A stretch of 64,000 bases of DNA from Psychrobacter vallis (GTDB taxonomy: Bacteria > Pseudomonadota > Gammaproteobacteria > Pseudomonadales > Moraxellaceae): NCBI RefSeq assembly GCF_904846715.1, contig NZ_CAJHBU010000016.1:1-64000 (forward strand), written 5' to 3'. Shown here piece by piece: positions 1-32,538 of this stretch. Both the position numbers and the translations under genes were made by a program. The notes beneath the pieces are model-generated. The model did not search any database, was not told where the DNA came from, and worked only from the letters and a program-made list of their open reading frames with translations. Each line of letters begins with the position of its first letter. Position 1 is the first letter of the stretch.

Positions 1-196
1 CAGAAGCTAACTTAATTAAGTCCCCTTGCTGTGGGTGTGTATTATATAGATTTACACATGGCTGTCAAATAGTATTTACTGTTTTTTAACGTATTTTGAA
101 TATTTTTATGAGCTATGCTGACAACCATATGTTTTTATTGGTTTTATACTTTATAAAAAACCAATATTTTTTAACAACAACTCTTAACTTAGCTAC

Positions 197-682
197 TTAC
201 TTACTGGCTAATGCTTTTTCGATATCCGCTTTGATTGCTTCAGGTTTGGTGGTTGGTGCATAACGATCGATAACTTGCCCATCACTGCCAATTAAAAATT
301 TGGTGAAATTCCATTTAATACCGTCGGTTAGCAAACCACCCTTTTGGTCTTTGAGCCATTTAAAAATTGGGTGAGCCTCTGCCCCGTTCACATCAACTTT
401 TGCCATCATTGGGAAGCTGACACCATAGTTCTTTTGGCAAAATGCACCAATCTCATCATTGCTACCCGGATCTTGGCTACCGAACTGATTGCAAGGAAAG
501 CCAATGACAACCAACCCTTGACTCTCATATTGTTTATGCAGCGCTTCTAGTCCTTCAAACTGTGGCGTAAACCCACATTTGCTTGCGGTATTGACGATTA
601 GCAACACCTTCCCTTCATATTCAGAAAATTCTTGCGTGTTGCCGTCCATGCGCTCAGCGGTAAAATCATAAATAATGCTCAT
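197..682 (-). CDS. Glutathione peroxidase family protein
   Basis: Thiol peroxidase of the glutathione peroxidase (BtuE/Gpo) family, reducing hydrogen and organic peroxides in the cytoplasm. The protein is about 161 residues, normal for bacterial members. Visible motifs are the peroxidatic cysteine region TASKCGFTPQ near residue 35, the glutamine-containing GFPCNQFGSQDPGS loop near residue 63, and the WNFTKFLI segment carrying the conserved Trp and Asn near residue 125. Two adjacent ATG codons are possible. The second (682) lies 6 bases after AAGGA, so I prefer it over 685. It lies just downstream of msrB on the same strand, which makes a small oxidative-stress pair, though 160 bases separate them. 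Family assignment is firm; the in vivo reductant (often thioredoxin in bacteria) is not shown by the sequence. Confidence 0.95.
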   Translation of the reverse strand: MSIIYDFTAERMDGNTQEFSEYEGKVLLIVNTASKCGFTPQFEGLEALHKQYESQGLVVIGFPCNQFGSQDPGSNDEIGAFCQKNYGVSFPMMAKVDVNGAEAHPIFKWLKDQKGGLLTDGIKWNFTKFLIGSDGQVIDRYAPTTKPEAIKADIEKALASK

Positions 683-845
683 CATTTATCCTTAAATTGA
701 TTGATGTCTTATGTTGTTTGATTGGCAACGCTACTTTTTTTAATAATATTAATATACAGCGCCAATAATAAAAAAGGAAGCCACATGTGCTTCCCTTCTC
801 TACTTCTAAAACTGTCTATGTCTAAGCTAAGAACCACGCTCAAAA

Positions 846-1271
846 CTATTTTTCAGATTTATCCAAATCGATAGATACGGAGTTGATGCAATAGCGCATG
901 CCTGTCGTTTCACGTGGTCCATCAGGGAAAACATGGCCTAGATGCGCGCCGCAGTTGCTACAGGTGACTTCTGTTCGAGTCATGCCAAGTGAATTATCGA
1001 CATGCTCTTCTATAGCACTGTTATCGATTCCTTGATCGAAACTTGGCCAACCACAGCTGGCATCGAATTTACTGCTTGAATCGAACAAACTGGCGCCGCA
1101 GCCTTTACAGCGATAAACGCCGTCATCGGTCGCATCGTTATAAACACCTGTAAATGGACGCTCTGTGCCCTTCTCACGCATCACATGGTATTCATCCGCG
1201 CTTAGGCGTTCTTTCCAATCAGCTTCGGTAAGTTGGCTGATTTCTTCTTGACTTAGTTGATTGTCTTGCAT
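846..1271 (-). CDS. msrB: Peptide-methionine (R)-S-oxide reductase MsrB
   Basis: Reduces methionine-R-sulfoxide in oxidised proteins. The 141-residue chain has the two zinc-binding CxxC pairs (CKGCG near residue 55 and CSNCG near residue 104) and the catalytic cysteine in the C-terminal motif GMRYCINS. The [10 protein letters not shown] segment typical of MsrB is also present. AAGGA lies 7 bases upstream of the ATG, supporting the start. It is a single-domain MsrB with no MsrA fusion. It sits upstream of the glutathione peroxidase on the same strand, consistent with a shared role in repair of oxidative damage. Confidence 0.97.
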
Positions 1272-1454
1272 GACTTATCCTTATTTAATTATGTATTATC
1301 TAAGCGGCAATGTTTGAGCAGCTAGCAAAATTTATCGTCATATTAATGTAAAAACGATGTGCTGTATCTGTTGGCTAGCTGTTCACTATTCAAGCCATAT
1401 ATTACAAGAATGGTACTGATGCACATTATCAGGAGTAGGTTATTACTTATATAA

Positions 1455-1471
1455 TGCAAGATATTCTTGCA
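1455..1471. promoter_or_regulatory. Palindromic operator candidate 1 upstream of the XRE-aminotransferase gene
   Basis: TGCAAGATATTCTTGCA is a perfect inverted repeat (7-bp arms, 3-bp centre) about 120 bases before the start codon of the HTH-containing gene. A TATAAT follows at 1478-1483. The size and symmetry fit a dimeric XRE repressor site. Binding by the downstream protein is inferred. Confidence 0.5.
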
Positions 1472-1523
1472 ATTAATTATAATTTAAAAAATCTTGTATT
1501 GTACCTTGTATTAAACTGATATA

Positions 1524-1540
1524 TGCAATAATATCTTGCA
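1524..1540. promoter_or_regulatory. Palindromic operator candidate 2 upstream of the XRE-aminotransferase gene
   Basis: TGCAATAATATCTTGCA repeats the TGCAA...TTGCA arms and 17-bp length of the site at 1455-1471. Further half-site-like CTTGTATT words lie between the two at 1493-1512. Two copies of one palindrome in one short promoter region suggest autoregulation by the XRE domain encoded at 1592. Confidence 0.5.
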
Positions 1541-1591
1541 TTAGCACTTTATCTAATACGAAATAATTGATTAAAAAAGGCTTGGATAAAC

Positions 1592-3271
1592 ATGGTCGAT
1601 GACAATAGTAAAGACACACAAGCGGAACGGTTGGTACAGTTACGCCGCGATAAAGGCTTTACTGCTGAACAACTGGCTCAAGCGATGACAGCAGCAGGTG
1701 CAAAGGTTAGTCGCGGGGCGATTTCTAATTGGGAGCGTGGAACAAACGGCATTGTTTCATCCAAACTACCCACACTAGCGCGTATTTTGGGCTGTAGCGA
1801 AGGCTATCTATTGCGAGGCGAGCTAAAAAACGATGTCAATGACCATACCCCTTCAACAAATAGCACTTCAATAAACGACACTGCACATAAGAACGAAAGT
1901 TTAAGTGCAGATTCGGTTATTCATATACTACCGCATGATGAAAATTCGCTTCAACCAAAAACATCCATTACAGCCTCTACAAAGACAGCTTCTGATAGTC
2001 GCAAAAACTCACAAGACAACCCGATGAGCGGTCACTCTATGAATGCATTAAAAAAATCTGATAAATTGCAAAATGTCTGCTACGACATTCGTGGCCCTCT
2101 ATTACAGACCGCTAATAGAATGGAGGCCGAAGGCAAACGCATATTAAAGCTTAACGTCGGTAATCCCGCACCTTTTGGTCTAGAAGCTCCTCATGAAATT
2201 TTGCGTGACGTGGCCATGAATTTGCCTGAGGCCACAGGATATTCGGATTCGCAAGGGATTTTTTCGGCGCGCAAGGCAGTATTGCAATATTACCAATCAA
2301 AAGGTTTGCTATCGGCAGTCGATGTCCGTGATGTCTATCTTGGTAATGGTGTCTCTGAGTTGATTGTCATGACCATGCAGGCGTTGATGAACGATGGTGA
2401 TGAAGTTCTGATTCCAATGCCAGACTACCCGCTTTGGACGGCAGCAGCCAATCTATCTGGTGGTACGGCTGTCCATTATCGCTGTAATGAAGCAGATAAC
2501 TGGCATCCTGATATCGAAGACATAAAGTCTAAAATTACCAGTAAAACCAAGGGCATTGTGGTAATTAATCCCAATAACCCGACAGGCGCACTTTATAGCG
2601 ATGACTTGCTACGACAAATTATTGATGTCGCTAAAGAGCATGATTTAATCATCATGGCTGATGAGATTTATGATCGCATTCTTTATGATGATACCGTACA
2701 CACGCCAATGAGCACCTTAACCGACGATGTCCTTGTGCTTTCATACAACGGCTTGTCAAAATCGCACCGTATTGCGGGATTTCGCGCAGGTTGGATGATG
2801 GTATCTGGTCGCAAGCAACATGCAGCGGACTTTATTGAAGGCTTGGATATGCTGGCATCCATGCGTTTGTGTTCTAATGTTCAAGGTCAGTATGCCATTC
2901 AAACAGCGATGGGTGGCTACCAAAGTATGAAAGATTTGACGTCGCAAAAAGGTCGTCTGTATAAGCAGCGTGAAATGGCGGTATCACGACTCAATGCGAT
3001 TAAAGGCATTTCTTGCACCATGCCGCAAGGCGCGTTTTACTGCTTCCCCAAAATGGATCCTGAGGTATACCCTATCGAAGATGATATGAGCTTTATGATG
3101 GATTTGCTGATTGAAGAGAACGTGTTAATGGTGCAAGGCACAGGGTTCAATTGGGATAAACCAGATCACTTTCGCTTGGTGTTCTTACCAAACCTGCATG
3201 ACTTAGAAAATGCGATGGATCGCTTAGACCGCTTCTTTGCCAAAAAACGTCAGCAATTTGGCACAAATTAA
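1592..3271 (+). CDS. alaA: XRE-family HTH regulator fused to AlaA-type aminotransferase
   Basis: A two-part protein of 559 residues. Residues about 10-75 form a Cro/C1 (XRE) helix-turn-helix domain, with signature segments QLAQAMTAAGAKVSRGAISN and WERGTNGI. A polar Ser/Thr/Asn-rich linker spans about 76-145. From about residue 150 the chain matches the fold-type I, PLP-dependent alanine aminotransferase AlaA (YfbQ), with LKLNVGNPAPFG, INPNNPTGA, MADEIYDRI and the PLP lysine in YNGLSKSHRIAGFR. AlaA transfers amino groups between alanine/pyruvate and glutamate/2-oxoglutarate. Stand-alone AlaA is about 405 residues, so the extra ~150 residues are the fusion. Internal ATGs at 2024 and 2039 could give a free enzyme, but I see no strong ribosome site there. 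Palindromes upstream suggest autoregulation. The enzyme family is sure; the link between DNA binding and metabolism is inference. Confidence 0.9.
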   Translation: MVDDNSKDTQAERLVQLRRDKGFTAEQLAQAMTAAGAKVSRGAISNWERGTNGIVSSKLPTLARILGCSEGYLLRGELKNDVNDHTPSTNSTSINDTAHKNESLSADSVIHILPHDENSLQPKTSITASTKTASDSRKNSQDNPMSGHSMNALKKSDKLQNVCYDIRGPLLQTANRMEAEGKRILKLNVGNPAPFGLEAPHEILRDVAMNLPEATGYSDSQGIFSARKAVLQYYQSKGLLSAVDVRDVYLGNGVSELIVMTMQALMNDGDEVLIPMPDYPLWTAAANLSGGTAVHYRCNEADNWHPDIEDIKSKITSKTKGIVVINPNNPTGALYSDDLLRQIIDVAKEHDLIIMADEIYDRILYDDTVHTPMSTLTDDVLVLSYNGLSKSHRIAGFRAGWMMVSGRKQHAADFIEGLDMLASMRLCSNVQGQYAIQTAMGGYQSMKDLTSQKGRLYKQREMAVSRLNAIKGISCTMPQGAFYCFPKMDPEVYPIEDDMSFMMDLLIEENVLMVQGTGFNWDKPDHFRLVFLPNLHDLENAMDRLDRFFAKKRQQFGTN

Positions 3272-3285
3272 ACCGTAATTTGATA

Positions 3286-3326
3286 GAAAAAAGCGCTGAT
3301 CGGCATGATACCGATAAGCGCTTTTT
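3286..3326 (+). terminator. Rho-independent terminator after the aminotransferase gene
   Basis: Hairpin AAAAAGCGCT-n-ATCGG ... CCGAT-n-AGCGCTTTTT with a T-run begins 15 bases past the stop. The flanking A-run also makes it usable for the opposing phosphate transporter transcript ending at 3391. Confidence 0.85.
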
Positions 3327-3390
3327 ATTGTTTTTAATGATACAACACAGTCTATTTGACTGTTTGAGCTGTATTAAAAATTAAACGGTC

Positions 3391-4998
3391 CTAAAAAATA
3401 TTGCTCAATATGACATAGCTGATTGCTGACATTGTTGCAGCCGCAGGAAGAGTAATAACCCATGCCAAACCGATCGGCTTCATAAGTGCCCAATTGGTAT
3501 CTCTATTGACAATACCAATGCCCAGTACTGCGCCTACTAAAGTATGCGTACTCGATACTGGCAGACCCAAAGTCGATGCGCCCATTACGACAGCAGCAGC
3601 AGCCAATTCAGCTGAAAATCCAGAAGCGGGATGCATTTTTGCCAAATTGGTACCGACGGTTTGAATCACCTCTTTACCAATGAACCAAAGACCGACGATC
3701 AGCGCCACACCAAAAGTCAACATCACAGCAGGAGGTACCGCAGCTTCTGACGCAATACTATTGGTACGAATCACATCCATAATCGCAGCAAAAGGACCGA
3801 CAGCGTTGGCAATATCATTTGCACCATGACTAAAAGCAAACGCTGACGCAGTAAATACTTGCATCCAGCTAAACATAATAAACGTCGCTTTGGTCAAGTC
3901 TTCTTTATGTTTCCCGCGGATACTTTTGGTATAAATAAACGTCGCCAACCACACCAGCGCCGCTATCATGCCCATGATTAAAAAGCCTTGTAACGTCGTC
4001 ATGCCACCATTAACGTTTTTAAGGCCTTTAAATACGACCAAAGAGGTCATCACCGCGCCGCCTGCAGCAGCAATAATAGGTACCCATTGCTTGAGTGCTT
4101 TTAGCGTATCAAGGTTACTACGCTCGTTCTCGATTTCATAAAGCTGTTTGTAATAATCAGTCTCTAAATCTTCAACGACGCAATCATCATCCTTATAGAT
4201 TTCTTGATCGCGTAACATCGCCGACGTATAAGCCAATTGTTCTGACTCGGTCATAGCGTCCAAAAACTCTTTGTGGTTTTGCTTTAGGGTTTTTTTGTCG
4301 CCTTTCAGGTTTGCAAGATGCGCCTCTGTCCTATCATTATACTCAATGATATTCTTTTTAATTTGTCCATACAGTAAATAGGCCAATACACCACCTAATA
4401 ATGGTGACAATACCCAAGAAATGACGATAGTGCCAATCGTGCCCCAATTGACGGTAGATAACGCCATTTCAGTACCACCTAACGTGATACCCAATACGAT
4501 AGAACTGCCGACGACCCCACCGATAATAGAATGCGTGGTCGATACTGGTAAACCCTTACGAGTGGCAATTAGCAACCAAAATGCGGCCGCAATAAGCGCT
4601 GAAAGCATGACATAAATAAACTGGTTGGGTGTCACCGATAGGCCATCTAAATCGACAATACCACTTCGAATGGTGTCTGTCACTTCACCACCTGCCAGCA
4701 CTGCGCCAGATACTTCAAATATCGCCGCGATACCCAGCGCTTGCGGGATAGTCAATGTGCCCGCACCCACTGACGTACCAAAAGAGTTGGCGACATCGTT
4801 ACCACCAATATTGAATGCCATAAAGACACCAAATGCGGTTGCCACAATAAATAGCGTCGTCTGTTGACGCATTGTGTAGTCTAGACCCCACCACAAAAAG
4901 TAGGCGGTCATCGCAATCAGTAAAATGGCAAAAAATAAATTTATTCTCATAGAGCCGACTGTTTTGGTTGACTCTGTAGAACTGCTGCTAATACCCAT
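3391..4998 (-). CDS. Inorganic phosphate transporter, PiT family
   Basis: Integral membrane low-affinity phosphate (metal-phosphate) symporter of 535 residues. Both halves carry the PiT signature: FNIGGNDVANSFGTSVG near residue 65 and FSHGANDIANAVGPF near residue 392, with the paired SVTPNQ/PVSSTH-type loops (LPVSTTHS and LPVSSTHT). About ten to twelve hydrophobic segments are visible. A charged cytoplasmic loop (about residues 215-295) splits the halves and is rich in Glu, Asp and Lys. It is longer than E. coli PitA mainly in this loop. The ATG at 4998 is used; a later Met at residue 17 is an alternative. It shares its strand with the polyphosphate kinase gene upstream, but a 614-base gap suggests its own promoter. 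Confidence 0.93.
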   Translation of the reverse strand: MGISSSSTESTKTVGSMRINLFFAILLIAMTAYFLWWGLDYTMRQQTTLFIVATAFGVFMAFNIGGNDVANSFGTSVGAGTLTIPQALGIAAIFEVSGAVLAGGEVTDTIRSGIVDLDGLSVTPNQFIYVMLSALIAAAFWLLIATRKGLPVSTTHSIIGGVVGSSIVLGITLGGTEMALSTVNWGTIGTIVISWVLSPLLGGVLAYLLYGQIKKNIIEYNDRTEAHLANLKGDKKTLKQNHKEFLDAMTESEQLAYTSAMLRDQEIYKDDDCVVEDLETDYYKQLYEIENERSNLDTLKALKQWVPIIAAAGGAVMTSLVVFKGLKNVNGGMTTLQGFLIMGMIAALVWLATFIYTKSIRGKHKEDLTKATFIMFSWMQVFTASAFAFSHGANDIANAVGPFAAIMDVIRTNSIASEAAVPPAVMLTFGVALIVGLWFIGKEVIQTVGTNLAKMHPASGFSAELAAAAVVMGASTLGLPVSSTHTLVGAVLGIGIVNRDTNWALMKPIGLAWVITLPAAATMSAISYVILSNIF

Positions 4999-5612
4999 AC
5001 GTTGATACGTCCTGCGTAAGCTGATTGAAATTATATGCGGTTGATGGCATTGCGTCGCTATCGATAATGTTTGTTATGGCATTTGACATTAAGATAACGT
5101 GAATAAAACGCGCAACGTGCTCTATAAATAGCGTGTTTTCTAATGACTGTTTTGATGCACTACCCTATCGCTTTGACGTTTGGCTTTACTTGACGATATT
5201 AAATAAGGTAAAACATCATTCCATAGATCACAAAGCCGCAAGTAATATTGCCAAATCATCTGATTACAGCATCTTGCGGCTTAGATTTTTATAGTGATAT
5301 CTTTGATATAAATAATGAGCACTGTCAAAATCTTGGTCGAAACGGTTAAGACATCTGCATCAAACAACCAAAATACTCTGCTTGCTGGGTACAGCCAAAT
5401 GCACAGCAGAGTCTATGACGCGCTATTATATTAAATATAAGCACATAATGCATGATGATATTACGAGATTTGTAACTGCCAGTGTATGACTCAGGCAATG
5501 TCATTATTCAACTGGCAATTATAGCCTTTTTTCATCACTTTTCTAGGGCGTGTCCTCATTTTAAAAATTTAAACAGCGCCAAAATTATAACGCGCAATAT
5601 ATGCTAGTTTCC
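4999..5612. other. 614-base spacer upstream of the Pi transporter
   Basis: No convincing ORF, tRNA or rRNA. It should hold the promoter of the leftward Pi transporter, but I found no clear Pho box. Around 5189-5215 there is a weak match to one end of the 145-bp repeat family (TTGACGATATTAAATAAG). TAGGGCGTGT at 5544 matches the tip of the MITE-like elements at 17967 and 59365. Confidence 0.6.
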
Positions 5613-7310
5613 CTATACTTCTGACAATTGCTCAATCGCATGATCCAAAATAGCCAATCGCGCTTGACGCTTTTCATTGGTCGCTATAACACACCAAGGC
5701 GCAGCTTTTGTATCAGTACGTGCCAGCATGTCAGCAGCTGACTGTACGTAATCTGACCACTTATCGCGGTTGCGCCAATCATCGTCAGTTAACTTAAATT
5801 GCTTATGCGGGGTCTCTTCGCGCGCTTTGAAACGTTTCAGCTGTTCTTTTTTATCGATGGCCAGCCAGTATTTGATGACGATTGTACCAGCTGCTGTGAG
5901 ATCCGCTTCAAAGCGATTGATTTCATCATAAGCACGTTGCCATGCCTCATCGTCAGCAAATCCTTCAACACGCTCAACCAAAACCCGCCCATACCACGTA
6001 CGATCAAAAATGGCGATACGGCTGACGCGATTTCTTTGTTCACTGGGTAATTTTGTCCAAAAACGCCACAGATAAGGGTGCTGTGATTCGTATAGCATCG
6101 GCGCACCAATATTATAAATTTGATATTCTCGTGGGTCGAGAGGCGCAACCAATCTTTTAATCGCGCCGCCCTTGCCAGCAGCATCCATTCCTTCAAATGC
6201 AAAAACAATATGACGACCTTGGCGGGCACGTAGGAGTTCAGCGAGGCGAGTTTGTTTTTCTGCCAACGCGGCACGATAGTCAGACTTATCTAGCTCTGAA
6301 TCATCGATATTTTTTAGGCGCTTAGGTATTTTGACAGCTTCGAATTTTTCGGGTTCGATTGCTTGATCCGGCGACTTATCAACGGCAGATTTCGCAGACT
6401 GTGGCTCATTTTTGGCAGAGTTATCAACAGTTGTTTTACTACTCACTAACGCGGTTTGCATGGCGTGCAGTACTTCGTGACAAAACTGTTCGGCAGCTTG
6501 CGACTTGTCTTCGCCATCAATGATGATCCAATCTTCCTGCTGTCTTAGCAGAGTCACTGCCACGTCATTAAATGTCTCGATGACTTTTTTGCTATTCCAA
6601 TCAATTTGATACAAGAACTGTGGATCTGCTTCGCTGTCATTTAGCCGCGCTTGTAGTGTATCAATATCGACATGAAACCAACATTTTAGTAATCTGGTTT
6701 GATTGGCGACCAGATCTTTTTCGAACTCTTTTAGCCTAATAAGTTGCTGCTGCAAATAATCTTGCCATGTTGTGATAGTAAGTTGATTGATGTTTTCATC
6801 ACTATCATTTTTTGACTGTTTACCTTTTACCTGATTATTGCCCTCTTCATTGTCTAACGTTGCCATACGCATGACGTTATAAAGCAAATCGGCATACCAG
6901 TTGCCAAAGTACACCATCACATCACCATGACGCGGCATAACCTTGGTATGTGCTTGCCAAATTGGCTGATAATCCAATGGACAATCACCAATGATCGCCT
7001 CAACTTTTAAAAGCCGAGGATCTACCCATTGGCGCAATTGTTTAACGGCTGTGCCCTTACCTGCCTGCTCCATACCATTGACGAGCACCAACAGCCCTGT
7101 GGGTTTGTTGGTAGTGGGCGGCGTCTGTTGGCGCGTGGCGCGTAGTGCATATTGGGCAGTGACCAATGCCAATCTCAGTGCATCCTTGTCCATAGAAAAC
7201 TGACTGATAGGATTGGGCGTTAATCGCTCCTCTATGATGTGCTGGCTAAACTGGGCACTGACTGACTGCGGTGCGGCTGGTTCCGTCGTATTGTTCTTTT
7301 TACTCATCAT
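5613..7310 (-). CDS. pap: Polyphosphate:AMP phosphotransferase (PPK2 class II, two tandem domains)
   Basis: Transfers a phosphate from polyphosphate to AMP, giving ADP, in the cytoplasm. The 565-residue protein has two PPK2 domains. The first (about residues 40-290) has a Walker A-like VNGMEQAGKGTAVKQ. The second (about 330-560) has FEGMDAAGKGGAIKR, a conserved FDRTWYGRVLVERVEG block and a Trp/Lys-rich lid region. The domains are joined by a Ser/Lys/Asp-rich linker (about 290-330). This duplicated form is known for PAP enzymes of Acinetobacter johnsonii and Pseudomonas. AGAGGAG lies 5-8 bases before the two possible ATGs. It precedes the Pi transporter, giving a phosphate/polyphosphate theme. 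The family is sure; AMP specificity follows from the two-domain class. Confidence 0.92.
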   Translation of the reverse strand: MMSKKNNTTEPAAPQSVSAQFSQHIIEERLTPNPISQFSMDKDALRLALVTAQYALRATRQQTPPTTNKPTGLLVLVNGMEQAGKGTAVKQLRQWVDPRLLKVEAIIGDCPLDYQPIWQAHTKVMPRHGDVMVYFGNWYADLLYNVMRMATLDNEEGNNQVKGKQSKNDSDENINQLTITTWQDYLQQQLIRLKEFEKDLVANQTRLLKCWFHVDIDTLQARLNDSEADPQFLYQIDWNSKKVIETFNDVAVTLLRQQEDWIIIDGEDKSQAAEQFCHEVLHAMQTALVSSKTTVDNSAKNEPQSAKSAVDKSPDQAIEPEKFEAVKIPKRLKNIDDSELDKSDYRAALAEKQTRLAELLRARQGRHIVFAFEGMDAAGKGGAIKRLVAPLDPREYQIYNIGAPMLYESQHPYLWRFWTKLPSEQRNRVSRIAIFDRTWYGRVLVERVEGFADDEAWQRAYDEINRFEADLTAAGTIVIKYWLAIDKKEQLKRFKAREETPHKQFKLTDDDWRNRDKWSDYVQSAADMLARTDTKAAPWCVIATNEKRQARLAILDHAIEQLSEV

Positions 7311-25480: not shown

Positions 25481-26995
25481 CTACTTAATCGCCTTGCTGT
25501 CTATCATCTTATCTTCTTTAACAGATTTTCGGACAAAACGAATGCCCGAATCAAGCGCTCGCTTTTGTAGTAAATCGAGCGCCTGCTGCTCCCATGTACT
25601 TTCACTACCAGATAAAGTCACATTTGGCTTTACACCAATGCCATCTATTTTTTTACCTGATGCGGTCATATAGTGAGCCACGGTTAGCTTGACTGCTTGC
25701 TCATCGTTCAGCGGTATAACCGACTGTACAGATCCCTTACCGTAGCTGACTTCACCCACGATAAGAGCCCGTTTTTGTGCTTGCAAGCTGCTGGCCAAAA
25801 CCTCTGCCGCTGATGCCGAATAACGATTTTGTAGAACAACTATAGGTAAGGATTTGAGTATCGCATTACCATGAGTTTGCAATACACGTGATTCATTTTG
25901 ACGCGCTTGTACTTGTACCACATCGGTATCGCTCATGAATAAACTGGCGACGCTCACCGCCGATGTTAATACGCCACCTGGATTATCACGCATGTCCAAC
26001 AAAATACCTGACACAGGTGCATTGAGGTTAATCAAACCGTCTAAGAGCTTTTCACGACTGTTGTTTTGAAAAGCGGGTAACTTGATAATAGCCATACCAT
26101 TAACAAGCTTTGTCTCGACGATTTGAGGGTGGCTATTATTACGCTGTAAAGTGGTGGTATGTTTGCGGCGACCCGCTGTAGAAGTCACAATATCCACTTG
26201 CGTACCAGCAATGCCAGTCAATAGTTGTTCGATATCATTGCGGCCTTCCTCTTCACTTAATTTGAAATCACCAACCTGATGAAGGTAATCTCCCACATCG
26301 ATGCCTTTTCTGTCCGCAGGTGAGTCATTCTTGACTTCTGTGATCACCCAATATCCAGCTTCTGGCTGATAAGTGACCTTGATACCGACATCACCGACAT
26401 CACCTTCCGTAAAAGCGCGCAGGTTTTCATAGGCATCTGCATCTAAAAATTCAGCATGACTGTCGAGCTTGGTCAACATACCGCTCATGGCATTATTGAA
26501 TAGCTCTTCATCATTGACCGTATCAACATATTCACGGCGAACCAAATCCACGGCGGCGACAAATGTCTTGAGAGTCTCTGGAGAGATAGCATTCAATGAG
26601 ACTTGAGCGACCTCAGGTGGAATGCTGGTATCAAACTCACTTGGATCGTCAGTTAATGCGCTGGCATCTGCAACGCTGTCTATTGAGTCATCAGCTTCGT
26701 CTGCCGCATCTAACATATCAGCAACATCCGCTAAACCATCCATATCGTTTGCTGCTATATTATCGGCATTTAGACTGATAAGTTGGAGACTTGCCGTAGG
26801 GCTATCGCTAGTACGATTGGTAGATACTTCTGCTGCTTGTGCATGAATAAGAACCGCACTCAATCCAAACAAACCTAGCGTCGTCAATGCACACCTAAAA
26901 AAATTAGGCGCTGTGGACACCTTTATCGCTCTGTTGCTAAATCGCTTAGACACAGACGAGCGCGTAAAATAGATAGGAGGCATAAGAGAACTCAT
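25481..26995 (-). CDS. Carboxyl-terminal processing peptidase (S41A family)
   Basis: Periplasmic serine protease of 504 residues. The N-terminus has a basic stretch followed by a hydrophobic signal (FFRCALTTLGLFGLSAVLIH, cleavage after AQA). An Asp/Ala-rich low-complexity segment runs about 60-125. A PDZ domain (about 195-285) contains VGIKVTYQPEAGYWVI and SPADRKGIDVGDYL. The protease core has LDMRDNPGGVLTSAV. The nucleophile Ser is in NRYSASAAEVLASS near residue 392 and the general-base Lys in VSYGKGSVQSVIPL near 419. CtpA-type enzymes trim or degrade envelope proteins, often with a lipoprotein TPR partner, which is not seen here. gpmI is just upstream (33 bases), so the two may share a transcript. 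The start is uncertain (Met1 or Met5), with no clear ribosome site. Confidence 0.92.
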   Translation of the reverse strand: MSSLMPPIYFTRSSVSKRFSNRAIKVSTAPNFFRCALTTLGLFGLSAVLIHAQAAEVSTNRTSDSPTASLQLISLNADNIAANDMDGLADVADMLDAADEADDSIDSVADASALTDDPSEFDTSIPPEVAQVSLNAISPETLKTFVAAVDLVRREYVDTVNDEELFNNAMSGMLTKLDSHAEFLDADAYENLRAFTEGDVGDVGIKVTYQPEAGYWVITEVKNDSPADRKGIDVGDYLHQVGDFKLSEEEGRNDIEQLLTGIAGTQVDIVTSTAGRRKHTTTLQRNNSHPQIVETKLVNGMAIIKLPAFQNNSREKLLDGLINLNAPVSGILLDMRDNPGGVLTSAVSVASLFMSDTDVVQVQARQNESRVLQTHGNAILKSLPIVVLQNRYSASAAEVLASSLQAQKRALIVGEVSYGKGSVQSVIPLNDEQAVKLTVAHYMTASGKKIDGIGVKPNVTLSGSESTWEQQALDLLQKRALDSGIRFVRKSVKEDKMIDSKAIK

Positions 26996-27028
26996 TCAAA
27001 TAGTAAGATGGATAAGGTTATAGCTGAC

Positions 27029-28687
27029 TTATGGTGCTGGCACTAATAAACTTTCGCCTGTCATTTCAGTGGGCGCTTCAATATTCATCAATGCCAAAAT
27101 AGTCGGAGCGATATCGCTCAATTTACCGCCACTGCGTACGTTTGGTTTTTGCTCACCAATATAAATTAAGGGAACGTGTTCAGTGGTATGCTGAGTATGT
27201 ACTTGCCCACTTTCATAGTCTTGCATCTGCTCACAATTGCCATGATCGGCTGTAATGAGCATATGACCACCAGCGGCTCGTACCGCTGACTCTACGCGAC
27301 CAACACACACATCTAACGCTTCTACGGCTTGCACAGCGGCATCAAATATACCTGTATGTCCAACCATATCACCATTGGCATAGTTTACCACTAGCACATC
27401 GTATTTACCTGACTCAATAGCGGCGACCAATTTATCAGTCACTTCAGGAGCGCTCATTTCAGGCTGTAGATCATAAGTTGCGACATCTGGAGATGGCACC
27501 AAAATGCGTGTCTCGCCCTCATACTCTGCTTCACGACCACCACTAAAGAAAAACGTCACATGGGCATATTTTTCAGTTTCAGCGATACGCAGTTGGGTTT
27601 TACCTTTATTCTGCAGATATTCACCAAGGGTGTTGGTCAATGATGTTGGATAATAAGCAATGCTGGTTTTGGGGCTGTCAGCCAATACATCAGAATATTT
27701 CGTCAACATGACAAAAGCGGCAAGTTTTGGCTGCTTTTGACGTGCAAACCCAGAAAACTCATGATCTGGTAAGACAAACGCTTGGGCAAGCTCACGAGCA
27801 CGGTCAGCACGGAAGTTCATAAAAATGAGTGCGTCATTGTCTTCAACGGTATATGGCACTTCATCACGTCCGATTACAGTCGTTGGACTAACAAACTCAT
27901 CGGTCTCACGCGCTTTATAAGCAGCTTGGACAGCACCATCAGCTCGTGTCGACAAACGATCAGCTTTGCCTTCAGTCATCAACTCGTAAGCTTTTTGTAC
28001 CCGATCCCAGCGATTGTCGCGATCCATCGCATAATAGCGGCCTATAATACTAGCAATCTGCACTCGACCAGTTTCATAATGAGCGTTGAGCTTATTGATG
28101 TAATCACGCAAACGATTGATGTATTTATCAGCAGATTTAGGCGGTGTGTCTCGTCCATCTAAGAAACAATGAACAAAGACGTTTTTGGCACCATGTACCA
28201 ACGCCGAGTGACACATTGCTTCGATATGGTCTTGATGCGAATGCACGCCACCATCTGATAGCAGCCCCATAATATGGACATTACCACCAAGTTCATTGGC
28301 AGCCTTTACAGCATTGACCAATGCTTCGTTTTTATAGAACTCACGATTGGCCAATTCGCTTGATATACGAGTCGAATCTTGATAAAGAACACGACCAGCA
28401 CCTAAATTCATGTGCCCAACTTCTGAATTACCAAACTGACCATCTGGTAACCCAACGTCCTCTCCTGAAGCGGATATCAGTCCATGCGGATATTGTTGAT
28501 AAATCTTATCCAAATTTGGCATATTGGCAGCTGCAATGGCATTGTCTTTGTCATCTTCGCGATGTCCAAAACCATCTAGTATCATTAAGACATGCGGCAC
28601 TTTTTTATTATTTTCGCTGTCCTGCTTATTATTAGATTGAGCCTGACTATTATCAATAGATGATGATTGCTGTTTATTATTAGACAT
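27029..28687 (-). CDS. gpmI: 2,3-bisphosphoglycerate-independent phosphoglycerate mutase
   Basis: Metal-dependent interconversion of 3- and 2-phosphoglycerate (alkaline phosphatase superfamily). The 552-residue protein has [13 protein letters not shown] (metal Asp), the phospho-Ser motif [17 protein letters not shown] near residue 92, [23 protein letters not shown], and C-terminal metal ligands [12 protein letters not shown] and [11 protein letters not shown]. The first ~28 residues are a Ser/Asn/Gln-rich tail not present in most homologues. GAGGAG lies 9 bases before the ATG. It closes the lower-glycolysis set with pgk and fba. It is followed closely by the Ctp protease gene. Confidence 0.97.
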
Positions 28688-28777
28688 GGATTACCGCTCC
28701 TCAAGTGAATGAACGCTTATAATGCTTTATTAGGATGTTGAAAGCCTTCTATATTAGCACACATCTTAAAATAGCTG

Positions 28778-28800
28778 AAAAACCCACCTTTTAAGTGGGT
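28778..28800 (-). terminator. Isolated hairpin terminator upstream of gpmI
   Basis: On the minus strand ACCCACTT...GGTGGGT is followed by TTTTTCAG. No leftward gene ends nearby; it lies 90 bases before the gpmI start. It may block read-through from antisense transcription of the 6S locus, or act in a gpmI leader. Confidence 0.55.
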
Positions 28801-28900
28801 AATCAAGTGTTCTTATACATTCATTTTATGAAAAGTAGAGTAAAGACCCAACACAATTCATACTAACTATTAAAGCCACGTATCAATCTCTAAATCAGAC

Positions 28901-28929
28901 TTGCAATCGTTGTAGTCATTGGTTAAGAT
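28901..28929 (+). promoter_or_regulatory. Sigma70 promoter of the 6S RNA gene
   Basis: TTGCAA (28901-28906) and TAAGAT (28924-28929) are separated by exactly 17 bases. The predicted start near 28936 coincides with the base of the 6S RNA closing stem. Confidence 0.75.
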
Positions 28930-28935
28930 AAATGT

Positions 28936-29124
28936 ATTCTGAAGTGTTGGCTAGTAGATGTTTATTCCCTGAGCCGATAATGCTTTACCAGGATGTGGTA
29001 CCTACTGTCTCATTGTGTATGCCTGCACCGCTTGCGGTGTATCAGGAAACCTGCCGAGATAGTGACGCATCCGCCCTGAACTTCACGGTTCATGGGTCAC
29101 CATCTTACGGCGGCACTTCGGTTG
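28936..29124 (+). ncRNA. ssrS: 6S RNA
   Basis: Small RNA that binds sigma70-RNA polymerase by mimicking an open promoter, acting in stationary phase. I recognised CCCTGAGCCGATAATGCTTT (28967 on) and the 3' arm with GGTTCATGGGTCACCATCTT and ACGGCGGCACTTCGG, which parallel the E. coli 6S segments CCCTGAGCCGATA and GGTTCAAGGGTTACA / CGGCGGCA. The ends pair: CTGAAGTG (28939-28946) with CACTTCGG (29114-29121). A good sigma70 promoter lies upstream. Length is about 189, as expected (E. coli 184). It is convergent with fxsA, unlike E. coli where ygfA follows. A covariance-model search would settle the exact ends. Confidence 0.88.
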
Positions 29125-29209
29125 TTATATTCGGTTAGTAATTGCTTTGTTTATATTCAGTAGGTTCACTTCTAACTATTTAGTTTATAAAAAATTAATT
29201 ATAACCACT

Positions 29210-29248
29210 AAAAAGCCCCTCTCGTCGATGACGCGAAGGGCTTTTTTT
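29210..29248. terminator. Bidirectional terminator between the 6S RNA gene and fxsA
   Basis: AAAAGCCCctctcGTCG..CGCgaaGGGCTTTTTTT forms a hairpin with T-runs on both strands, between two convergent units. Confidence 0.8.
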
Positions 29249-29271
29249 ATGCCTAATCAATTCTGTGGTAA

Positions 29272-29904
29272 TTACTCATCATTGGCAGATTTTGTAATCT
29301 TTTTCACATCTTTAGGGATGTTTTTGGCAGTGCCATCAACGGTTGTATGCTGTTTGAAGACATCACCGAAAGGATTTCGTTGCTGCTGCCCAAATGGGTT
29401 TTGACCATTCATACCACCTGCACCGCCAAATGGATTTTGCCCGCCCACACCACCAGCGCCGCCGAATGGATTTTGACCACCGCCCATTTGACCACCCATC
29501 TGCTTAGCCATCATTTCCATCATTTTTTGCTGATTGTTCATGACATAGTTATTGGCGACATCTTTTAGTTTCTTTTGTACTGGTGGCAGTACGACCAATA
29601 GCGCGATTAAATCGCTAAGCACGCCAGGGATAAGCAGTAGAATACCTGCGGCAGCCATTGCCACACTTTTTATCATGGTTGATTCTTGCGGACGCATCGC
29701 AGGGTTCATCATACCGCCAGCTTTCATTTGTTGCGCCATTGGATTGAGCGCCGCCATACCTTTACGTATGAGTGAAATACCGATGACAGCAGCGATAATA
29801 AACCAAATAAATACTAGCCAGCCACTTATGAACTGCGCAAGCAAATACCACAGCAGCATCTCGATAATAAACCAAACGATGGCAATACCAACTATCTGAC
29901 CCAT
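29272..29904 (-). CDS. fxsA: FxsA family membrane protein
   Basis: Small inner-membrane protein related to FxsA (suppressor of F exclusion of phage T7). From the ATG at 29904 (AGGAAGA upstream) it begins MGQIVGIAIVWFIIEMLLWY and has about 210 residues with three to four hydrophobic helices in the first 110. The glycine-rich segment AAAGILLLIPGVLSDLIALL is characteristic of the family. The C-terminal third is a Gly/Asn/Gln/Met-rich tail with repeated GGAGG-NGQNPFGG-like units, longer and more repetitive than in E. coli (158 residues). Convergent with the 6S RNA gene, divergent from ruvC. Confidence 0.88.
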   Translation of the reverse strand: MGQIVGIAIVWFIIEMLLWYLLAQFISGWLVFIWFIIAAVIGISLIRKGMAALNPMAQQMKAGGMMNPAMRPQESTMIKSVAMAAAGILLLIPGVLSDLIALLVVLPPVQKKLKDVANNYVMNNQQKMMEMMAKQMGGQMGGGQNPFGGAGGVGGQNPFGGAGGMNGQNPFGQQQRNPFGDVFKQHTTVDGTAKNIPKDVKKITKSANDE

Positions 29905-30057
29905 GAAGTGTCTTCCTATAAAATAAAAACTAAAAAATGAAGCGCCATGCAAATTAAAATGGCTAACATATGATGTATATGGGGATTGATTGCTATACTA
30001 TCAAACTTACGGCTAATTTTTAAGCCATAAAACAAAATGTAAGCAAGACGGAATACT

Positions 30058-30642
30058 ATGGCAATTATTATCGGGATTGATCCGGGTTCGCGTATGACAG
30101 GTTATGGCATCGTTCAACAAACGGGCGATAAACTGACCTATATCGATGCGGGTACGATTCGTACGGATACCAAAGAGATGCCAGAACGCCTGAAGAGGAT
30201 TTTTAATGGCTTAACGCGTATCACTCAGCATCATCTAAAATATGCAGATGAGCCAATTTATACAGCGATTGAGCAAGTGTTTATGGCAGAAAACCCTGAC
30301 TCTGCACTTAAGCTGGGGCAAGCACGGGGCGCGGCTATTGCTGCTATGGTCGCATTGGATTTGGAGGTATCAGAATATACCGCACGTCAAATCAAACAAG
30401 CCGTGTGTGGTTATGGCGCTGCCGCTAAAGAGCAAGTACAAGAAATGGTTTGTCGGATATTGTCACTAGATTTTGTGCCACAACAAGATGCTGCCGATGG
30501 TCTTGCTTGCGCAATATGTCACGCGCACTCCAGCCATTCAATGAATAAGTTGATACTGAACAGCGCCATGCGTGGACGCGGTGCTTCTAAGAAAAAAGGT
30601 CGTTGGCGTTTGACTGAAGAAGATCTTGGTAATTTGCGTTAA
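30058..30642 (+). CDS. ruvC: Holliday junction resolvase RuvC
   Basis: Dimeric endonuclease that cuts Holliday junctions after RuvAB migration. The 194-residue chain has the RNase H-fold acidic residues: Asp7 in [13 protein letters not shown], Glu in [11 protein letters not shown] near 72, and the C-terminal [14 protein letters not shown] with catalytic Asp near 145. A basic C-terminal tail ([20 protein letters not shown]) extends it by about 20 residues over E. coli RuvC. It is about 16 kb from ruvA/ruvB, so the E. coli-like ruvC-ruvA-ruvB linkage is broken. Confidence 0.97.
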
Positions 30643-30655
30643 TTTTAACAGCCAT

Positions 30656-30685
30656 AAAAAAACACGCATCTGTTTGCGCGTGTTT
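30656..30685 (-). terminator. Terminator after the META lipoprotein gene
   Basis: AACACGC/GCGTGTT hairpin; on the minus strand it runs into TTTTTTTA, about 50 bases beyond the lipoprotein stop. It may also slow rightward ruvC transcripts. Confidence 0.7.
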
Positions 30686-30734
30686 AGGGGAAGTACTATT
30701 TAATTATGATAGAGCATATGTGACGGACGCCACC

Positions 30735-31682
30735 TTAACGGCTCTCTTCTACTATTGAGCTTTCAATCACAGCATCTAATACATAAGCATACGCTTCGCC
30801 TGAAGCATCAGCTTCCATCATTTTATTGTCTAACGGGTAACGCTGTAGACGTAATACCTCTTCATGCTTACCATCATGTTGATACCCTTCGATCATACCT
30901 GTGAATGGTGCCCAGTCGCCTTCGCTGACTTTTATACCTTGATCATCATAAGTCACAGGCTTAACTTGTAGACACGCCTGTGGTCCATCATCTAAGCACG
31001 GTATCATTTCAGCATTGACTGCCCAAAATACCGTTTCACCTTTGCTATTATATTTAGCTTGCGCCGTAATCCTACCTTCCCACACTAAGGTAATACTATC
31101 ATTAGTCACTTGCGTCAATATTGGCCTATCATCTTTAGATGGGTCACTTTCCACTAACGCCAACTGACTGTCACCTTGCATTAGCTTGCTTAGACTATTT
31201 TCGGCCATATCCAGATCGCCACACGACATCTTAGTGCTCATGCTGTCTTCAATCGTCAAAGTCGCCTCTTGTAATTGATAAGAAGCACTTATAATATTGC
31301 AGCCAACACTATAATTTAAGGTGTTTTGACCTTGATACTCATTGAACGTCAAAGTTACTTGATCTTTAATTGCCATAAGCTTATTTAATGACTGAGCTTT
31401 ATCACCCGTTACAGAGTTCAGCGTCCAACGGTAACGCGAAAGCGCGTTGATCCTTGCTTTTTCAGGACTGACATCATCTGCTCTTTCCCTATCAACGATA
31501 GCATCCGTACCAGACGCCATCGCACTATTATCTGTTTCGGTATTAAAACTATTCGCGACTTCTTGTACATTCTGCTCATTTGAGGAAAAAGAATCTTGGC
31601 AAGCGCTTAACGCAAGCACTGCTAACAGCATACTTGGATATATACTTGATCTAACGAACAACACTCTAAAAGATAATGTCAT
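30735..31682 (-). CDS. META-domain predicted lipoprotein
   Basis: Envelope lipoprotein of about 315 residues. Start chosen at 31682 because AAGG is 10 bases upstream; the ATG at 31691 is too close to it. The signal MLLAVLALSAC has a lipobox LSAC. Residues about 70-185 form a META (HslJ-like) domain with RYRWTLNSVTG, VTLTFNEYQGQNTLNYSVGC and MSTKMSCGDLDMAENSLSKL. The C-terminal part (about 190-315), with KYNSKGETVFWAVNAEMIPC and the paired cysteines in PCLDDGPQACL, resembles the COG3650-type predicted lipoprotein domain. HslJ relates to novobiocin/heat response in E. coli; the role here is unknown. Confidence 0.8.
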   Translation of the reverse strand: MTLSFRVLFVRSSIYPSMLLAVLALSACQDSFSSNEQNVQEVANSFNTETDNSAMASGTDAIVDRERADDVSPEKARINALSRYRWTLNSVTGDKAQSLNKLMAIKDQVTLTFNEYQGQNTLNYSVGCNIISASYQLQEATLTIEDSMSTKMSCGDLDMAENSLSKLMQGDSQLALVESDPSKDDRPILTQVTNDSITLVWEGRITAQAKYNSKGETVFWAVNAEMIPCLDDGPQACLQVKPVTYDDQGIKVSEGDWAPFTGMIEGYQHDGKHEEVLRLQRYPLDNKMMEADASGEAYAYVLDAVIESSIVEESR

Positions 31683-31744
31683 AACAGTCATGCCTTGTGG
31701 TTACACTTTTCTAAATTACCGCTTTTTTTATCACCCAAAAAGTA

Positions 31745-31773
31745 TTTATTAGGCTTTTATAAAGCCTAATAAA
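31745..31773 (-). terminator. Perfect palindrome downstream of the GST gene
   Basis: TTTATTAGGCTTT / AAAGCCTAATAAA with a 3-base loop, 13-bp perfect stem. On the minus strand TACTTTTTGG follows, so it can end the GST transcript. It could also stop the other direction. Confidence 0.65.
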
Positions 31774-31875
31774 TCGACCACTATAGCGCTGCTGTTTATT
31801 GCTATTGTAACAAAATGTTTAATTTTATAGATTCATAGTAACGGCATTTTTTACATGCTTGAAAAACCTACTTTT

Positions 31876-32538
31876 TTATTCTTCTTTACTAGCGGGCTTA
31901 GCTTTTGCCATATTTTGAATACTAAAACGCTCATTCATCATTTGATAAAAACGGGCAAGATTTTTGCCTTGCTCATTAGGATTTACTTTCAGTATTTTGC
32001 CAAAATCCAGACCCAAATAAAGCACGATGTCCGCAAAACTTAACTGCTCACCCACCAAATACTCATGACCTTCCAATACAGTTTCGAAATAAGCCAAGGC
32101 TTTATCAGCACGTGCGATAGACGGTGCGACAAATTCTGGTACTTGTTCAACTCGCTGAGCTTTAGACGGATGGCTATGTTGAAATGCCAGCATAAAATTA
32201 TATAGCACTTCAAACTCGGCAATGCGTCGCATCGAACAAACCTGCGCACGTTGTATCACATCATTGCCCATCACAGAACGCTCGCCATAAACGCGATCAA
32301 GATATTCGCACACTGCCTGTGAGTCATTAAGTATCGTGCCATCACCCAATTTCAACACTGGCACGGTCTGCATCGGATTCATTTTGGTAAATTCATCTGA
32401 CATCTGCTCATTGGTCGCAAAGTCGATATCTACCACATCGATATCATCCATATCATCGACATCGATTCCTTTTGATGCCAATAAGATAAGGGCTTTACGT
32501 GGATTGGGGGCGGTGCGGGTTATATATAGTTTTTTCAT
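31876..32538 (-). CDS. Glutathione S-transferase family protein
   Basis: Cytosolic GST of 220 residues. The N-terminal thioredoxin-like domain (about 1-85) has LYITRTAPNPRKALILLASK and the cis-Pro and glutathione gamma-Glu site MQTVPVLKLGDGTILNDSQA. The helical C-terminal domain has YLVGEQLSFADIVLYLGLDF near residue 150. AAGGAG lies 6 bases before the ATG. The substrate is unknown. A monocistronic unit upstream of the peroxiredoxin gene on the same strand is likely, since the peroxiredoxin has its own terminator. Confidence 0.92.
   Translation of the reverse strand: MKKLYITRTAPNPRKALILLASKGIDVDDMDDIDVVDIDFATNEQMSDEFTKMNPMQTVPVLKLGDGTILNDSQAVCEYLDRVYGERSVMGNDVIQRAQVCSMRRIAEFEVLYNFMLAFQHSHPSKAQRVEQVPEFVAPSIARADKALAYFETVLEGHEYLVGEQLSFADIVLYLGLDFGKILKVNPNEQGKNLARFYQMMNERFSIQNMAKAKPASKEE

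Follow-up and report, generated by a model that had tools for sequence, protein, structure and literature searches.

Dissimilar DNA-binding domains fused to the alanine aminotransferase AlaA in the Moraxellaceae, and the probable control of alaA by its own product

Introduction

Why should a housekeeping aminotransferase carry a DNA-binding domain at its N-terminus, and what would that domain bind? The question is raised by a gene in a 64,000-nucleotide stretch of Psychrobacter vallis DNA ("the window" below). An earlier note, made from the letters of the window alone, had read this gene as an XRE helix-turn-helix (HTH) joined to a full-length AlaA-like enzyme with an intact pyridoxal phosphate (PLP) lysine in the sequence GLSKSHR, and had suggested that it might be a bifunctional enzyme-regulator with alanine/pyruvate or the PLP state as its signal. 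PutA and BirA are metabolic enzymes with a DNA-binding domain of their own that control their own genes, and they are usually treated as single cases. We found no published account of an AlaA-HTH fusion in the literature searched, which was short of most subscription papers and of all bioRxiv preprints.

Results

The fusion gene and its enzyme part

The gene and its parts are as follows:

1592-3271, + strand: XRE-AlaA fusion gene, a single open reading frame of 559 amino acids with an ATG start and no internal stop (Pfam)
1625-1822, + strand: Cro/C1-type HTH, residues 12-77, with the P22 c2 repressor fold (Pfam, AlphaFold2/Foldseek, dN/dS)
1823-2038, + strand: variable polar linker, residues 78-149 (dN/dS, no invariant columns)
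2039-3268, + strand: AlaA enzyme, residues 150-559 (alignment to E. coli AlaA)
2759-2761, + strand: Lys390, the PLP lysine (E. coli Lys240), in GLSKSHR, invariant in 22 Psychrobacter sequences

The joining of the two parts described by the earlier note is borne out, since they lie in one 559-codon frame on which Pfam and the alignment to E. coli AlaA (PDB 4cvq) agree, and the PLP lysine is indeed present as Lys390. HTH_3 matches residues 16-73 with 24.7 bits (cut-off 23) and Aminotran_1_2 matches residues 184-545 (E 5.8e-59), while HTH_19 scores 29.9 bits in the whole protein, just under its cut-off of 30.2, and 33.0 bits, over it, with the N-terminus alone. AlphaFold2 models residues 1-85 as a five-helix domain (mean pLDDT 82.9). 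A Foldseek search of the PDB with this model placed the operator-bound P22 c2 repressor first (3jxb; E 1.2e-3, TM 0.89 normalised to target length), and nothing reached an E-value below 1e-3. Profile and fold together identify a Cro/C1 (XRE) DNA-binding domain. The full-length AlphaFold2 model is poor (mean pLDDT 51.5, from 22 similar sequences) and was used solely to note the low-confidence linker (pLDDT 24-30).

Among PDB entries the enzyme part comes closest to E. coli AlaA: residues 25-426 of 4cvq align with residues 148-550 of the fusion (E 2.4e-169, 567 bits). We mapped the E. coli numbering given in PMC4094517 onto the fusion, and Lys390, Tyr164, Ile166, Arg167, Gly168-Pro169, Tyr217 and Tyr279 are all invariant in 22 Psychrobacter sequences. 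The full-length alignment, the PLP lysine, the N-terminal plug Tyr-x-Ile-Arg-Gly-Pro and the equivalents of Tyr68 and Tyr129 mark the enzyme as AlaA; it is predicted from sequence to be an alanine-making glutamate-pyruvate aminotransferase of the AlaA type with its catalytic positions intact. It misses the cut-off of the NCBIfam alanine aminotransferase equivalog NF006230 (best model 348 bits, against 534), which we did not take as defining because the model apparently lacks specificity for AlaA of the E. coli kind. We also considered, and rejected, that the fusion might be a paralogue accompanying a free AlaA, as there is no second AlaA in the organism's own 3.2-Mb genome (remaining matches are at most 29% identical). 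An Rfam scan of positions 1-6000 gave no match.

Conservation and selection in Psychrobacter

The gene is present in all 105 Psychrobacter genomes searched (Psychrobacter is genus g1 in our coding, from the organism names of relatives), and the HTH was aligned or read in 104 of them: in 95 rows the alignment begins at or before query residue 10, and in the other 10 it begins past residue 100; nine of these ten were read, all with the HTH, the remaining one being G079. In 76 of 77 Psychrobacter sequences (one was left out that has no start codon within its stretch), 152 pairs of suitable distance gave a dN/dS of 0.025 in the HTH and 0.026 in AlaA, and of 0.535 in the linker between them. Invariant columns number 40 of 68 in the HTH region and 0 of 146 in the linker. 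Purifying selection is thus as strong on the HTH as on the enzyme, and on the dN/dS values we rejected the view that the HTH frame is an artefact.

Operator-like sites at the alaA promoter

The region upstream of the gene has these features:

1455-1471, no strand: putative operator 1, TGCAAGATATTCTTGCA, a perfect TGCAAG-N5-CTTGCA and the sole perfect match in the organism's own 3.2-Mb genome
1505-1511, + strand: putative operator half site CTTGTAT, with the -35 hexamer TTGTAT at 1506-1511
1524-1540, no strand: putative operator 2, TGCAATAATATCTTGCA, a one-mismatch site with the -10 hexamer TAATAT at 1529-1534

Positions 1455-1540, which the earlier note had guessed to be the operator region, hold both operator-like sites and the half site, and the two hexamers are separated by 17 bp. 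The genome has 15 places that match at no more than one mismatch (1 perfect and 14 with one mismatch), of which the perfect one and one other make up the alaA promoter pair. Among de-duplicated promoters of genes with the XRE head, 69 of 77 have TGCAAG-N5-CTTGCA at one mismatch or fewer, against 0 of 91 of other classes; the pattern was composed after reading 27 promoters, so these class counts are partly in-sample, and they are non-independent since the species are related. The XRE-class promoters contain 118 sites, against 0.11 in shuffles. In 53 of the 77 a -10 box is embedded in the operator-like site, and 52 of these 53 have TTG 17 bp ahead of the TAATAT-type hexamer. The eight promoters with no site at this stringency comprise L118, with a perfect site farther upstream, L037, L150 and L156, with a two-mismatch site, and L038, L042, L151 and L152, with none even at two mismatches. 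Two-mismatch matching is uninformative in the 64-kb window, because its 5 matches there equal the chance level.

Perfect sites were found in 13 of 18 further genomes scanned. In 12 of the 13 a perfect site lies shortly before alaA, and 11 of the 13 have no other anywhere in the genome; nine of the 13 had not been read when the pattern was written, and eight of these nine have the site at alaA. G171 has two perfect sites, neither at alaA, and G145 has three extra ones elsewhere. Of the five scanned genomes with no perfect site, one (G112) belongs to a genus with a different head. A headless gene of genus g10 (L159) is also without the operator-like site. In M. catarrhalis, found after the pattern was set, the fusion has a perfect site upstream in one of two prophage records, the second record starting too near the gene to include the operator place. 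Conserved operator-like sites thus stand at the gene's own promoter, as expected under autogenous control, and computation identifies a dedicated operator-like site for the XRE head there.

The proposed alaA promoter was missing from the results of a scan for promoter consensus, which found promoter-like sites no more often than in shuffles. The scan gave instead a second promoter-like pair (TTATCA, 18, TATAAT) at positions 1426-1455 of the window, ending where operator 1 starts, and this may be the real alaA promoter or an additional one.

Four dissimilar heads on one enzyme

The earlier note had proposed a search for the architecture across the Moraxellaceae. Fusions were found there in several genera, with XRE as just one of four dissimilar heads: the N-termini that we read show that the extension of AlaA differs by genus. 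Seed profiles sorted 264 loci (repeat fetches of one gene being counted separately) into XRE (139), StbA-like (40), "GRSPR" (9), "MYFV" (6) and headless (70), with no double matches. The XRE head is found in Psychrobacter (g1), g7, g8, g10, g14 and g16, the StbA-like head in g9 and part of g15, the GRSPR head in g13 and the MYFV head in g11; AlaA is headless in g2-g6, g12, part of g15, one g10 locus and one unplaced MAG. By hhalign, with shallow alignments, the four heads have no similarity to one another (probability at most 0.1% in 6 pairs), and very remote kinship, above all of GRSPR to XRE, may still exist. Outside the Moraxellaceae none of 17 loci read has a DNA-binding head on AlaA. In a draw of 276 Gammaproteobacteria, AlaA was present at the limit used in 25, of which 23 lie outside the family; the N-termini read in 16 of these 23 have no head. 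One locus of this draw, L239, is one long GC-rich frame with no head-profile match.

By inference g15 is Acinetobacter, because its head recurs at 82% identity in A. baumannii records, and g10 is Moraxella, from the M. catarrhalis gene. The A. baumannii StbA-like fusion is annotated as one 476-aa aminotransferase. The StbA-like domain occurs in 110 of 158 g15 genomes; in 106 of the 110 it lies in an open frame of at least 477, which fits the fusion, and the fusion was read directly in 35 g15 genomes. The domain's frame is short or broken in two g15 genomes (G306 and G243), and two others (G175 and G288) gave free-standing copies alone.

Several single loci deserve record. In G243, a single-contig genome, the alaA match (L064) is split into three parts that do not share a frame, so this genome probably yields no fusion enzyme. 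G151, a one-contig, 100% complete g10 genome, has no AlaA match, though its genus otherwise has the XRE fusion. Psychrobacter sp. I-STPA10 has the fusion gene twice in one assembly (L132, L133). The first 2.2 kb of the Moraxella phage Mcat18 and Mcat15 records (L293, L294) include an unannotated alaA fusion gene at the start, which is probably host DNA at the prophage edge; the phage label is therefore not evidence of a phage-borne gene. A gpx-msrB-alaA locus with a StbA-like head lies at 26700-31882 of the 84.8-kb A. baumannii plasmid pTG29392_1 (L289), possibly a piece of chromosome mislabelled as plasmid.

Kinship and motifs of the other heads

The StbA-like head (class II), an HTH of plasmid type, is related to a known plasmid self-repressor. 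Its profile, made from 8 sequences, matches StbA of R388 in the PDB (7pc1, E 1.8e-10), while a single head sequence gave E 0.0044 to NF041290, under that model's cut-off. Its promoters have AAGCAA-N5-AAGCAA in 28 of 28 cases, against 1 of 140 others (0 of 24 headless g15 genes), and the commonest AGCA spacings in them are 11 (27 cases) and then 31 (15 cases). Homology to StbA and upstream direct repeats of 11-bp period together place these heads in the StbA family. R388 StbA binds 9-bp direct repeats with 2-bp spacing ahead of the operon that encodes it (PMC3098194) and represses its promoter 50-fold (PMC3937220). The exact array is absent upstream of the plasmid StbA-like relatives L287, L288 and L290; L287 and L288, free-standing on Acinetobacter plasmids, have related upstream 11-bp units, TGCAAATAGGA and AGCAAAAAGTT, and in L290, from a Psychrobacter plasmid, such units are not clear.

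The GRSPR-class promoters (g13) contain the palindrome ATAGGNAATANCCTAT in 6 of 6 cases, against 0 of 162 others, of which 4 match the looser pattern ATAGG-N6-CCTAT; like the XRE pattern, the StbA-like and GRSPR patterns were composed after reading promoters of those classes. A PDB profile search and PHROGs gave nothing useful for this head, so its DNA-binding nature is argued from the promoter palindrome and one relative, on a Bradyrhizobium plasmid, which adjoins an S24 peptidase gene and has GGAATAGGCCTAT upstream. We take a place beside an S24 peptidase gene to be the usual Cro-like gene position, and the GRSPR head is possibly a Cro-like DNA-binding domain. The MYFV head (g11) has weak library matches and relatives on small mobilizable plasmids. 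An unannotated free-standing relative lies near mobC on the mobilizable Aeromonas plasmid pAerXIII (IncQ2; L291). GACAG-type sites number 7 in four MYFV (class IV) promoters, 3 of them in one promoter, and this motif is only suggestive because such sites are few and present in other classes (9 in 15 extra-family promoters and 7 in 13 plain family genes).

Locus context and the apparent movement of heads with their operators

The neighbourhood of the gene is itself conserved:

846-1271, - strand: msrB, divergent neighbour
197-685, - strand: glutathione peroxidase gene (gpx)

One or both of these genes lie divergently upstream in 58 of the 66 relatives' loci listed, with every class represented. 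Neither was found upstream in the other eight (L037, L041, L042, L151, L156, L161, L181 and L186), of which L041 and L181 have too little sequence; g7 loci have gpx, with no msrB found. In two pairs of Acinetobacter loci, about 150 bp separate the enzyme from an upstream element common to the pair when there is no head, and about 430 bp when head and repeats are present, which looks like the joint arrival or departure of head and operator in a single piece.

In a tree of 105 AlaA rows, built by a quick method with SH-aLRT support only, the GRSPR and MYFV genes are single starred clades. The XRE head requires two changes, which a gain followed by the loss in L159 would fit (clade support 83), the StbA-like head requires ten, and all classes together require fourteen; the count is blind to gain versus loss, and resolution among the Acinetobacter rows is weak. 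An independent-pairs test found head and repeats together in 3 of 3 supported pairs, a non-significant result because just three pairs are usable. Where they could be compared, these observations suggest that head and operator come and go together.

A likely internal start and a probable second product

The junction between linker and enzyme has two further features:

2039, + strand: likely second start ATG (Met150), aligned with Met1 of E. coli AlaA
2021-2034, + strand: ribosome-binding-like stretch before ATG 2039 (anti-Shine-Dalgarno duplex -3.3 kcal/mol)

Of 102 distinct XRE-class N-termini, 82 have methionine at exactly the Met150 position, compared with a Met frequency of 1% in the linker, and a fixed-place Met is kept in 7 of 7 GRSPR, 4 of 4 MYFV and 22 of 31 StbA-like sequences; L042 and L136 have no Met near the enzyme. 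Met1 is ordered in the E. coli AlaA structure (PMC4094517), so retention of the Met might be structural. In 61 non-redundant XRE-class sequences the anti-Shine-Dalgarno pairing ahead of the internal Met is -3.67 kcal/mol, against -2.50 kcal/mol after synonymous recoding (Wilcoxon p 2e-8, a value that ignores relatedness of the sequences). Over all 100 usable XRE-class sequences it is -3.55, beside -3.24 at the first start, -3.42 at headless AlaA starts and -0.51 in linker controls. The corresponding values are -2.33 (controls -0.87) for StbA-like and -2.33 (controls 0.41) for MYFV genes, and the GRSPR class has no internal ribosome-binding signal (-2.24, linker control -2.16). The pairing in the window itself is unremarkable, being equalled by 18% of synonymous recodings. 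A free short AlaA is probably made alongside the long form by internal initiation. The earlier note had counted translation of homologues from an internal ATG (2024 or 2039) against its own reading; ATG 2039 is likely used, with the HTH kept alongside, and two products are likely.

Discussion

The above observations lead us to consider it likely that alaA is repressed by its own product, an enzyme-repressor fusion, binding being judged from sequence and repression (rather than activation) from the position of the sites and from the relatives of the heads. E. coli AlaA is a dimer, so that two XRE heads would be brought together and be able to grip the palindrome TGCAAG-N5-CTTGCA at the alaA promoter. 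The operator-like sites overlap the likely -35 and -10 hexamers of alaA, and binding there would block the gene's own promoter; operator position, conservation and co-occurrence with the head argue for such autogenous negative control. Free AlaA made from Met150 might mix with the long form and so tune repression. The enzyme-regulator reading of the earlier note is thereby sharpened: a Cro/C1 HTH sits on an AlaA with intact catalytic positions, and the gene is very probably self-regulating.

Three other accounts of the locus seem improbable to differing degrees. That the real protein begins at Met150, the upstream HTH frame being a leader or untranslated, could appeal to the retained Met150 and its ribosome-binding-like stretch, but it hardly survives the strength of selection on the HTH, the presence of the long frame in every Psychrobacter genome searched and the co-occurrence of operator and head. 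Equally hard to credit is a MocR-like regulator whose aminotransferase fold is a sensor that has lost enzyme function. The order of parts is the same in MocR proteins (PMC4944035), a DNA-binding head and then an aminotransferase fold, but the HTH here is of the Cro/C1 type and not winged GntR, the nearest solved relative is the enzyme AlaA itself, the mapped catalytic positions are kept, and this is the sole AlaA in the genome. Membership of the MocR family was rejected as well, Pfam giving HTH_3 and HTH_19 and no GntR on a five-helix P22 c2 fold; the aminotransferase-fold C-terminal domain of MocR proteins is present, though closest to a true enzyme. It is also unlikely, if somewhat less so, that the long protein acts mainly elsewhere, for example on the divergent msrB-gpx genes. 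The intergenic region is commonly shared with msrB or gpx, but the operator-like sites lie near alaA, around its likely promoter, and no msrB was found upstream in the g7 loci L147-L150, where three nevertheless have an operator-like site with one mismatch and the fourth one with two.

The harder question is what autogenous repression would respond to. Simple dosage control, in which the head gauges the amount of AlaA and the enzyme lends dimerisation and stability with no sensing, has nearly as much for it as against it. The heads have free-standing relatives that repress their own genes (StbA) or, in our reading, occupy the place of a Cro-like gene, several dissimilar heads serve, and perfect XRE operators are mostly at alaA alone; but dosage control leaves unexplained why AlaA, among all enzymes, was chosen repeatedly. 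True metabolite sensing, in which alanine, pyruvate, glutamate/2-oxoglutarate or the PLP/PMP ratio shifts the N-terminal arm and with it head pairing, so that repression tracks the alanine pool, is a substantial possibility that we lean against. The arm of E. coli AlaA plugs the active site and makes dimer contacts (PMC4094517), and the equivalents of Tyr15, Ile17, Arg18, Gly19-Pro20, Tyr68, Tyr129 and Lys240 are invariant. Occupancy by substrate or cofactor might alter head pairing because the arm shuts over the active site and itself belongs to the dimer interface. The long, variable and weakly constrained linker argues against tight mechanical coupling, the presence of four different heads and linkers on the same enzyme also counts against sensing, and ligand sensing by the fusion is speculative.

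The alaA enzyme seems to have been fused repeatedly to dissimilar DNA-binding domains that resemble those of phages and plasmids, and the heads would have been captured from mobile elements with their operators several times in the Moraxellaceae. A fuller reading, which we hold tentatively at a little under an even chance, is that whole self-repressor modules of mobile elements have landed time and again at alaA (domain and operator array gained or lost as one block ahead of the enzyme, in at least four dissimilar versions), with the native start and ribosome-binding site kept; repressor-enzyme and free enzyme would mix as dimers, and repression would read the enzyme level and possibly active-site occupancy.

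Comparison with known systems sets off what is particular here. The enzyme part resembles E. coli AlaA from end to end, including the PLP lysine, the plug residues and the dimer tyrosine, but E. coli AlaA has no DNA-binding head. MocR/GabR proteins share the plan of DNA-binding head, linker and aminotransferase fold; MocR joins a winged GntR head to an aspartate-aminotransferase-like domain, whereas the fusion joins a Cro/C1 head to the housekeeping enzyme itself. R388 StbA is homologous to the Acinetobacter-type head, and its 9-bp repeats with 2-bp spacing (PMC3098194) match the class II period of 11 bp; it differs in being a free-standing plasmid self-repressor and in the sequence of its repeats.

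P22 c2 and other XRE repressors have the same fold as the HTH in the window, and in the fusion the aminotransferase replaces their oligomerisation part. Phage XRE repressors have palindromic operators that overlap their own promoter. PutA and BirA differ in the enzyme, and the AlaA fusions show dissimilar heads within one family together with a retained internal start.

The multiplicity of heads, the fusion and the selection on the head are computational observations, and from them it appears that one housekeeping enzyme gained autoregulation several times within one family by way of dissimilar heads. Since head and operator seem to change together, the origin of self-regulating enzymes is directly testable by head swaps. 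The genera concerned are both environmental and clinical and include Psychrobacter, Moraxella and Acinetobacter (A. baumannii by name, other genomes by inference), and in them the supply of alanine may be under a control that is hidden behind the annotation "PLP-dependent aminotransferase".
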